Positions 57,171 to 60,042 of a stretch of 64,000 nucleotides of DNA are shown here, piece by piece (position 1 is the stretch's first letter; every line of letters begins with the position of its first letter). Source of the stretch: Balneolaceae bacterium. Lineage in GTDB: Bacteria > Bacteroidota > Rhodothermia > Balneolales > Balneolaceae. The notes beneath the pieces were generated by a model. It made no database searches. It was not told the DNA's origin and worked only from the letters and a program-made list of their open reading frames with translations. The stretch spans positions 1 to 64,000 of the forward strand of contig JAEPNO010000011.1 of assembly GCA_017643365.1 (NCBI GenBank), read 5' to 3'. The translations under genes were made by a program, and so were the position numbers.

Positions 57171-57253
57171 GTCATCCAGATCCGCCGGCTGGCGGAGAGG
57201 ATCTGCACATATAAATTATTTTGAAGATTCTTCGCTATCGCTCAGAATGACAA
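57171..57253 (+). repeat. Interspersed repeat covering the luxC start
   Basis: GATCCGCCGGCTGGCGGAGA forms a TCCGCC/GGCGGA hairpin and is followed by GGATCTGCACA and then TTCTTCGCTATCGCTCAGAA. The tail resembles widespread intergenic repeats ending CGCTCAGAATGACA. Its conserved AGAATGACA supplies the ATG of luxC (57247). Confidence 0.6.
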
Positions 57254-58284
57254 TAAAATCCCACATACAACAAATCGATAAAGCCACTCGGGCATGGTTT
57301 CGGGCGGATAATATCCTTTTGAAAGAAGCCATTGAACAAACGGTTGCTGAGGGTTTGTTCACCTTCGAAGACATCAAGTTTGCGATTCGTGCACTCAAGG
57401 AAAAAGTGTATGCCGGTCAGGTAGCGGAATGGGCTGAACGGGCAGGGTTGAGCGAGGAGCATCATCAAAAAGGAAAAAAAGTGCTTTGTTTGCATGCCGG
57501 GAATTTACCAATGGTTGGTTTTCAGGATGCGTTGGGCACGATCTTATCCGGCGCTAATTATTATGGTAAACTCTCGAGTAAAGATCCGTATTTGTTAGCC
57601 GCTTTTTTGGATGCACTAAAAAATGCCGGGGTATCAACTAACATTGATTATTCGACAGATTTAAACTCATTTAAAGATTTAAAAGCTGACAAAGTCCTTT
57701 TTGCCGGATCGGAGCAATCGGTGGAGCCGGTAAAGCTAAAACTGTCAGAATTGAACGCTATTACCGATGAAACTGCCTTTGACATCCGAACTGCTAAATT
57801 TTCGATAGCCTACATCACCAGCGAAGACTCGGACGTTGTGACCGATTTAGTAGAGGCAATTTTTCGGTATGGGGGACAAGGTTGCCGATCGGTGGCCGTA
57901 GTGGTTAGTCCGATCAAATTCTCGAATTTAAAATGCCACTTTCAGGATTATATCGAAGCGTTTTGGCTGAAAAATCCACCGACTAAAAAGTACACTTCGG
58001 CGATTGAATATCAATTTGCCTACAACAAAGCCATTGAACGTGACCAAGCGTGGCTCGATCATTTTTTGATTCAGGATAGCGAAGATTTCCCCGAGCTGGA
58101 TTCAACCTTGCATTGGGTTCAAGGGGATGAGAATAAGGTGAAAGAATTAGTTCAAAAATTTGGAGCAGCAGTTCAAACAGTCTACACAGCCGGAGAGAAG
58201 ATAGCGGGTTTAAAAACAGATTTTTTGAGTCAGGCCCAAACGCCTAACCTATGGTGGGAGCCGGATAGGAAACCGGTTATTTGA
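57247..58284 (+). CDS. LuxC-family acyl-CoA/acyl-protein reductase
   Basis: 345 residues of the LuxC (aldehyde dehydrogenase superfamily) reductase family. Active-site Cys213 lies in RYGGQGCRSVAVVVSP, and LHAGNLPMVGFQDALGTILSGANYYGKLSSKDPYL is diagnostic. It reduces an activated acyl group to an aldehyde with NADPH. The ATG comes from an interspersed repeat; no better start is seen. The last 17 codons are duplicated 828 bases downstream beyond the vapBC genes. Works with the LuxE-like protein upstream. Confidence 0.88.
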   Translation: MTIKSHIQQIDKATRAWFRADNILLKEAIEQTVAEGLFTFEDIKFAIRALKEKVYAGQVAEWAERAGLSEEHHQKGKKVLCLHAGNLPMVGFQDALGTILSGANYYGKLSSKDPYLLAAFLDALKNAGVSTNIDYSTDLNSFKDLKADKVLFAGSEQSVEPVKLKLSELNAITDETAFDIRTAKFSIAYITSEDSDVVTDLVEAIFRYGGQGCRSVAVVVSPIKFSNLKCHFQDYIEAFWLKNPPTKKYTSAIEYQFAYNKAIERDQAWLDHFLIQDSEDFPELDSTLHWVQGDENKVKELVQKFGAAVQTVYTAGEKIAGLKTDFLSQAQTPNLWWEPDRKPVI

Positions 58285-58293
58285 TATATTTAA

Positions 58294-58341: not shown

Positions 58342-58528
58342 CTGCGTTTAATAAAACAAATTTGTGTTCAATTCATGATTTGACTTAGGATTATAACAAC
58401 ACTTTCTGTGATGGCTAATTTTATAGAAATCGTAGTTGTTTATCGGTATAGCGAAAGCGCCTAATCCAATTCTAACTAATAAAACGGTGTGTTTTACGTA
58501 TTTTGTATCGATCAACAAAGTGTAAAAT

Positions 58529-58735
58529 ATGGAAACAGTAAAAGTATCACCGAAATTTCAGGTATCGATTCCCGCGAAAATAAGAAAGTCGTTGAAAATC
58601 AAAGCAGGACAAAAAGTTCTAATGATTCCGATTGACGGCAGAATTGAAATGGTGCCAATTAAAGATGCCAAGTCTTTACGTGGAATCGCGAAAGGAGTAG
58701 ATCTGAACATTGAAAAAGAAGAAGATCGATTTTGA
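58529..58735 (+). CDS. AbrB/SpoVT-type antitoxin (VapB-like)
   Basis: 68 residues. METVKVSPKFQVSIPAKIRKSLKIKAGQKVLMI is a swapped-hairpin AbrB DNA-binding domain, followed by a short C-terminal part (KSLRGIAKGVDLNIEKEEDRF) that would block the toxin. The TGA stop overlaps the TTG start of the toxin gene (TTGA). Probable autorepressor of the pair. Confidence 0.88.
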   Translation: METVKVSPKFQVSIPAKIRKSLKIKAGQKVLMIPIDGRIEMVPIKDAKSLRGIAKGVDLNIEKEEDRF

Positions 58736-59103
58736 ATGTTTTAGATTCATCATTTTGGCTCGAGTATTTCATGGATGGGCCAAATGCAGATATTATTGAA
58801 CCAATCATATTAAAACCAGATACTATCATTGTTCCATCGATTTGTTTTTATGAAGTGTATAAAGTAACACTTCGTAAGTTAGGCAAAACTAAAGCACTAG
58901 ATTGTATTGGACTCTTAGCTCTTTCGAAAGAAATATTTATTGATCAGGATATCGCTCTAACAGCAGCACAAATTAATGCAGAGCGAAAACTCCCAATGGC
59001 TGACTCGTTGATTTACGCAACCGCTCTTAAATATGAAGCCACTCTCTGGACCCAAGATTCAGACTTTGAAGGATTACCAAGTGTGAATTATTTCGAGAAG
59101 TAG
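58732..59103 (+). CDS. PIN-domain toxin VapC
   Basis: 123 residues starting at TTG 58732, which overlaps the antitoxin stop. PIN acidic residues are Asp5 (LDSSFWLEYF), Glu41 (SICFYEVYKV), Asp91 (LPMADSLIYATALKY) and Asp109/Asp111 (WTQDSDFEGL), a complete set, so an active RNase is likely. The module lies between luxC and a duplicated luxC 3' end, suggesting it arrived by insertion. Confidence 0.88.
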   Translation: MNVLDSSFWLEYFMDGPNADIIEPIILKPDTIIVPSICFYEVYKVTLRKLGKTKALDCIGLLALSKEIFIDQDIALTAAQINAERKLPMADSLIYATALKYEATLWTQDSDFEGLPSVNYFEK

Positions 59104-59111
59104 GAAAAAAC

Positions 59112-59165
59112 CAAGCACAAACGCCAGATATTTTGTGGGAGCCGGATGGGAAACCAGTTATTTGA
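59112..59165 (+). pseudogene. Duplicated luxC 3' end
   Basis: The 54 bases encode QAQTPDILWEPDGKPVI and a TGA, matching the luxC terminus QAQTPNLWWEPDRKPVI (58231-58284) at 44 of 54 bases by hand alignment. It is not joined to any start codon. It marks the other edge of the vapBC insert. Confidence 0.75.
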
Positions 59166-59238
59166 TTAGCATTTAGAACCACAGTAGGGTGATTTGAAAA
59201 TATGACCCCGTGGGATTTGAAAATGATTTATAAATGGT

Positions 59239-59340
59239 AGGGTCAATTCATGAATTGACCCTGACTGATTTGAAATTGAATTTAATTATCGGTGGGGATG
59301 AATCGTGATTTGTAATTGGGGCATGATTCGTGAATCATCC
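59239..59340. repeat. REP composite downstream of the RAYT gene
   Basis: A perfect 24-bp palindrome at 59239-59262 (half AGGGTCAATTCA), a spacer, then ATGATTCGTGAATCAT at 59323-59338. The same two palindromes in the same order and with similar spacers occur within the RAYT coding region at 59595-59702. Confidence 0.75.
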
Positions 59341-59352
59341 AGACAATTGTAT

Positions 59353-60042
59353 TCATCGAAATTTATCCAAATTCCACGTTGACGGGTTGTTTTGAATGTA
59401 TTCTGTGATATTATTGAACGCGGTTTGATTGCGAATGATATGTTCATAATAATTCGGTTGCCAAATTCGAGAACCGGGTGTTTTTCGATGCAAATTTATC
59501 TGTTTCGATACGTTCATTTTGTACCACCCAATCACCATGGGTATGATCATCTTTCTGCGATGTTTTCTGTTTGTTTCAATATCGGGATTGTGATCACGTA
59601 GGGTCAATTCATGAATTGACCCTACGTGGTTCGAAATTTTATTATTTCCGATTATCGGGGATGATTCACGATTTGTTGGAAGGGATGATTCGTGAATCAT
59701 CCGTACGGGTTTCGAAATTTTATTATTTCCATTTATCGGGGATGATTCGTGAATCATCCGTACGGGGTTCGAATTCGAAATAATTTCAATAATCCCGTGT
59801 ATATGATTCGGCATTACCACAAATGCACGTGTTCGACAACGTGGAAAACGCACATCAATCTTTTCACAATATTGATGTGCAATGCTACCATTTCGGTTCA
59901 AAATCATGTCGCCATTTTCAATCCTACCCAAAAGGTGTTCGCGTTGATGCGTACAAATGGTAATGAAATAGAATCCTGATATAGAATCCTGATATAGAAT
60001 CCTGATATAGAATCCTGATATAGAATGGTCATAGGATTGCAT
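59353..60042 (-). CDS. REP-associated tyrosine transposase (RAYT, IS200/IS605-like Y1)
   Basis: 229 residues. Y1 transposase fold: FYFITICTHQREHLLGRIENG, then the HUH motif AFVVMPNHIHGIIEI (His80, His82), and the catalytic Tyr region IWQPNYYEHIIRNQTAFNNITEYIQNNPSTW (Tyr198 or Tyr199). RAYTs are thought to cut and spread REP hairpins. Residues about 92-150 are an insert made of translated REP repeats (VRMIHESSP...GNNKIS units), and the N-terminus carries a 13-residue duplication from a 13-bp tandem array. The catalytic parts flank the insert and look intact, so activity is possible. Confidence 0.88.
   Translation of the reverse strand: MQSYDHSISGFYIRILYQDSISGFYFITICTHQREHLLGRIENGDMILNRNGSIAHQYCEKIDVRFPRCRTRAFVVMPNHIHGIIEIISNSNPVRMIHESSPINGNNKISKPVRMIHESSLPTNRESSPIIGNNKISNHVGSIHELTLRDHNPDIETNRKHRRKMIIPMVIGWYKMNVSKQINLHRKTPGSRIWQPNYYEHIIRNQTAFNNITEYIQNNPSTWNLDKFR
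59595..59759. repeat. REP palindromes inside the RAYT gene
   Basis: A perfect 34-bp palindrome at 59595-59628 (half CACGTAGGGTCAATTCA) and two copies of GGATGATTCGTGAATCATCC at 59683-59702 and 59740-59759, plus a partial copy at about 59659. The two full copies are 57 bases (19 codons) apart. Confidence 0.8.
59968..60026 (+). repeat. 13-bp tandem repeat (ATAGAATCCTGAT)x4.5
   Basis: Four perfect units from 59968 to 60019 and a partial fifth, at the 5' end of the RAYT gene. Three units equal 39 bases, so the expansion keeps the frame and duplicates SISGFY with IRILYQD between the copies. Confidence 0.85.

Follow-up and report, generated by a model that had tools for sequence, protein, structure and literature searches.

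An inherited REP within a subclass 2.4 RAYT transposase gene and its probable expansion into a short in-frame array

Introduction

Two kinds of palindrome, arranged as a composite, lie downstream of a RAYT transposase gene in the window (the whole 64,000-nt stretch of Balneolaceae DNA analysed here) and recur inside the reading frame of that gene. How did a coding gene come to hold an array of REPs without loss of its frame? The original prediction was that the gene had been invaded by its own REPs, since RAYTs were thought normally to have REPs only around them. This expectation is wrong for one group of these proteins. Quentin et al. 2018 (PMC6006769) described a subclass, 2.4, in which REPs sit within the tnpA_REP genes, generally between the HuH motif and the catalytic Y and with the frame undisrupted. 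The REPs of the subclass are double-foot palindromes of the form GT[AG]G...C[TC]AC, its linkers are variable and repetitive, and it takes in all 100 sequences that Bertels et al. 2017 assigned to RAYT group 4 (PMC6006769). This was the only report found on in-gene REPs in RAYTs; for other genes, in-frame REPs are described in PMC3733652.

Results

The features of the locus are these:

59353..60042, minus strand: RAYT (TnpA_REP-like) Y1 HuH transposase gene (Pfam; NCBIfam below cut-off; PDB 4er8; alignment)
59973..60024, minus strand: four tandem 13-nt copies within the 5' part of the RAYT coding sequence (sequence reading)
59740..59763, minus strand: in-gene palindrome B, copy 1, encoding VRMIHESS, residues 94-101 (sequence reading)
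59683..59706, minus strand: in-gene palindrome B, copy 2, GTACGGATGATTCACGAATCATCC, encoding VRMIHESS, residues 113-120 (sequence reading)
59659..59671, minus strand: half palindrome B within the array, predicted to pair with copy 2 (sequence and fold prediction)
59626..59763, minus strand: extra in-frame array of a 57-nt and an 81-nt unit, 46 codons, not in the nearest relatives (alignment)
59598..59625, minus strand: in-gene REP palindrome A, a 28-nt double foot (aligns with the one REP that relatives have in the gene)
59237..59340, minus strand: downstream composite of palindrome A, spacer, degenerate B and palindrome B (77% identity to the in-gene composite)
59184..59229, minus strand: another, degenerate REP/spacer unit on the downstream side, matching 59237-59282 at 72% (sequence comparison)

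The gene encodes a protein of 229 residues with the HuH motif at H80-I-H82 and the catalytic tyrosine at Y215. Its match to Pfam Y1_Tnp (PF01797), at 27.1 bits, is above the 23-bit cut-off, and H80, H82 and Y215, the residues expected of the Y1 HuH superfamily, are invariant in a 34-sequence alignment. The top match in sequence profile and fold searches is the E. coli TnpA_REP with a REP hairpin bound (PDB 4er8), which shares the HuH/Y1 fold and is the best structural match, with the catalytic Tyr aligned; however, that protein is of subclass 2.2 and is without the loop insertion that the window protein carries. Against the NCBIfam RAYT equivalog (NF047646, REP_Tyr_transpos) the protein scores 63.5 bits, which falls short of membership at the curated cut-off of 80. 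This match is broken into two stretches with the in-gene insert between them, a division that plausibly explains the low score.

The motifs given for subclass 2.4 (NH[IFV]H, WQ and YIxNNP; Table 1 of PMC6006769) appear as NHIH at residues 79-82, WQ at 194-195 and YIQNNP at 215-220. The chain ends 9 residues past YIQNNP, with no conserved C-terminal extension, and there is a variable insertion between beta3 and alphaC, as in the subclass. The REPs are likewise of the subclass type, being long and flanking as well as in-gene, with GTAG...CTAC double feet on the in-gene palindrome A and a single foot, GTAGGG...CCCT, on the downstream copy. By its motifs, loop and REPs, the protein is, as far as sequence can place it, a TnpA_REP of subclass 2.4, that is, of RAYT group 4.

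In the AlphaFold model of the protein the core has pLDDT values above 90, and residues about 88-150, flanked by a strand (80-87) and a helix (153-162), are disordered and without structure (pLDDT 43-54). A structure model had been suggested as a check on whether the insert is a surface loop, and it places the insert, residues about 91-150, in this disordered loop. A change of length there should therefore cost little, and the loop with its REPs is apparently tolerated by the protein.

The N-terminus is shorter than those of relatives, and their RxSIRL stretch is absent. The repeated 13-nt unit in this region is TCTATATCAGGAT, and the three copies beyond the first lengthen the gene by 13 in-frame codons. 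Since 13 mod 3 is 1, the frame is set by the copy number, and with 2 or 5 copies the RAYT gene would, by reading, be entered from an alternative start frame further upstream (MESRSELLMHHYKCNP...). The repeat is possibly a phase-variable start or a sign of decay. Given a short N-terminus altered in this way, the gene may be decaying. The protein is presumed to retain its activity.

Palindrome A (GTAGGGTCAATTCATGAATTGACCCTAC) and palindrome B (GGATGATTCACGAATCATCC) were both confirmed where they had been predicted, downstream of the gene and in frame within it. In-gene palindrome A lies at 59600-59623, or at 59595-59628 as a perfect 17+17 with its foot, and is translated as VGSIHELTL (residues 140-149). 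The cores of the two full in-gene palindromes B are at 59683-59702 and 59740-59759. In coding orientation the linker consists of GTACGGATGATTCACGAATCATCC plus a spacer (57 nt), then GTACGGATGATTCACGAATCATCC plus the half palindrome and a spacer (81 nt), and then palindrome A, in a single frame. The one in-gene copy of about 105 bases that had been proposed is thus present, but the array is larger, with a further spacer and palindrome B extending up to 59763. The reading frame is kept because each repeat unit is a multiple of 3 nt in length and is free of stops in that frame. Alignment and frame reading agree that these cognate REPs lie between H80-I-H82 and Y215. Shuffled versions of the in-gene stretch fold far less well than the stretch itself, which has z-scores of -6.7 as DNA and -6.4 as RNA.

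A RAYT homolog is present in 40 of 98 related genomes. The nearest relatives, from the same family (Balneolaceae), have a loop about 40 residues shorter, yet carry one REP there, and a palindrome-like REP is found at the position of palindrome A in all of the nearest relatives compared. The genomes G018, G036, G052, G034 and G032 have a single REP, read as VGAIHESPLR/Q or VGAIHELPLR, in exact alignment with it. Comparison with RAYTs free of the insert, which the original prediction had proposed, thus finds the extra 46 codons missing from them and one REP still in place. The notion that this is a normal segment of the protein devoid of palindromes was rejected, since the homologous segment of the relatives is itself palindromic.

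When the nearest relatives were ranked on the core alone, leaving out the linker, and the 28 nt in alignment were then extracted, 95% of cells were paired and 8 of the 14 base pairs showed a compensatory change; these values come from ten distinct sequences, in which the 28-nt stretches were taken at the VGAIHE-like motif and are not random linkers. The pairing score was matched by none of 500 shuffles, nor by any slid version nearby. The aligned palindrome is present in Anaerolineales, Brocadia, Microcystis, Calditrichaeota and others, and is somewhat degraded in one homolog (L045). In-gene REP A is clearly old.

A linker stem of at least 11 was found in 77 of 120 RAYT homologs from many phyla, compared with 6 of 120 upstream stretches of the same length and 1.3% of codon-shuffled linkers; a strong linker palindrome is missing in about a third of these genes. 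Several homologs (e.g. L080, L081 and L103) have two or more linker units. Short tandem peptide repeats occur in the same loop of L029, L046, L082 and L036 (VAPNNA, VDHADP, IAHPDNAVSQ and SPMVHP), and mark it as a hot spot for tandem expansion. Double-foot REPs and RAYTs also occur together: 15 of 16 genomes with double-foot REPs have a RAYT homolog, versus 25 of 82 others (Fisher p 2.5e-6, with related genomes counted as independent).

Whether every in-gene REP is the REP dispersed through the genome that carries it was also considered, using three patterns in nine genomes, seven of which were reached via loci from other phyla, and this idea was found to hold only loosely outside Balneolaceae. 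The three in-gene patterns are genome-specific and present in few copies, most of which sit in or close to the RAYT locus; in Algoriphagus, no full copy occurs outside the gene.

The composite outside the gene ends 12 nt past the RAYT stop codon, with palindrome A at 59239-59262 and palindrome B at 59319-59340. Its identity with the in-gene composite extends over 110 nt (E 6e-20), which bears out the common ancestry of the two that had been proposed. In a genome-wide search, palindrome A has 15 sites at up to 3 mismatches in 3.77 Mb, where the reversed palindrome, as a control, has none; outside the RAYT gene, none of the sites falls within an ORF of more than 79 aa. Palindrome B is essentially private to the RAYT locus, with one weak match elsewhere in the genome.

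The surrounding DNA has other repeats. A LuxC-like acyl-CoA reductase gene (57247-58284) has a second copy of its 3' end (58231-58285) at 59112-59166, with 82% identity, across a MazE-like/PIN toxin-antitoxin-like pair (58529-59103), and there is a degenerate half-site of palindrome A at 58368-58384.

Discussion

The reading best suited to these results, to which we give a probability of roughly 0.85, is that the array descends from the inherited in-gene REP (A) of a subclass 2.4 RAYT and was expanded by local duplication of units consisting of palindrome B plus spacer. An ancestral gene would have had one in-frame REP in the disordered loop that joins the HuH strand to the helix after it, and the loop would then have grown by about 46 codons as REP-plus-spacer units bearing palindrome B were duplicated locally. 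The in-gene and downstream arrays would also have exchanged or copied sequence. Slippage, recombination or gene conversion among the repeats is somewhat more probable than not as the route by which the array arose, with copying by the transposase as a less likely alternative. It is because relatives without the 46 codons already carry one REP at this site that the segment is seen as an expanded inherited REP rather than as an invader of a gene that had none. A second RAYT of the same genome (L054:1320-2505; G000:C2, about 84.8-86.0 kb) has a tandem duplication, at 89% identity, in which the duplicated stretch spans the in-gene REP, the 3' half of the gene and the downstream REP, and a third REP follows; this REP-to-REP duplication supports recombination between in-gene and downstream REPs as a route.

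The original prediction of self-targeting or gene conversion is therefore retained in part: local duplication or conversion can explain the array, with a parallel in L054, but a REP-free gene that was invaded is not what the relatives indicate. A recent self-invasion, in which the RAYT protein carried the composite from downstream into the gene that encodes it, would account for the shared order and identity of the two composites and for the near-confinement of palindrome B to this locus, but it is improbable, since the corresponding position in relatives is already occupied by a REP, the unequal 57- and 81-nt units and the half palindrome are such as duplication yields, and the L054 duplication takes in transposase sequence, which points to recombination. 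Ordinary coding repeats arising by chance might be looked for in a subclass whose linkers are variable and repetitive (PMC6006769); this has a negligible likelihood in view of the copies of palindrome A against none for its reversed control, the fold z-scores near -6.5 and the excess of linker stems over codon shuffles, and was ruled out.

A further proposal, which would add to expansion of the inherited REP rather than replace it, is that selection acts on the in-gene REP as a cis-acting element. It could be a DNA or mRNA hairpin bound by the protein to limit its own expression, or could mark a master copy that determines the REP served by the protein; either role might explain vertical retention of the REP and maintenance of its palindromic form across phyla. 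The position is conserved, compensatory changes alter amino acids while the palindrome is kept, most members of the subclass have one in-gene REP, and the sole full copy in Algoriphagus is in-gene. However, about a third of the genes are without a strong linker palindrome, and conversion from other REP copies could preserve the palindrome without any in-gene function, so that a cis-acting role is possible but rather doubtful. If it were true, the expanded array would be a multi-site version of the element.

In-gene REPs are thus already published for subclass 2.4, and what is seen here is the multiplication of an ancestral REP into a short in-frame array. The locus is like the subclass in its motifs, in its double-foot REPs placed in frame between HuH and Y, in its variable loop and in its lack of a C-terminal extension, but differs from the published description (PMC6006769) in that the in-gene array has one A, two full B and one half B, is common to the gene and the downstream composite, and includes a palindrome, B, private to the locus. 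The intragenic GTAG/CGTC REPs (PMC3733652) and the Rickettsia RPE cited there are likewise in-frame palindromic repeats whose clusters encode tens of residues, but those strike unrelated genes, whereas the in-gene REPs described here have a fixed place within the transposase gene. Homology of position, together with covariation across phyla, confirms a published, little-explored habit of one RAYT subclass, for which this locus provides a compact case of a REP multiplied within a coding gene, its frame unbroken. If the in-gene REP were functional, a domesticated transposase and its target repeats would be linked within one gene.

A third RAYT of the same genome (L055; G000:C2, about 112.2-113.0 kb) has a HuH-to-Trp linker of 136 residues made of degenerate repeats (RDTPVLPN-like), with the palindrome GTAAGGGCGTATCGCGATACGCCCGTAC, and a similar gene is found in the same genus (L031).
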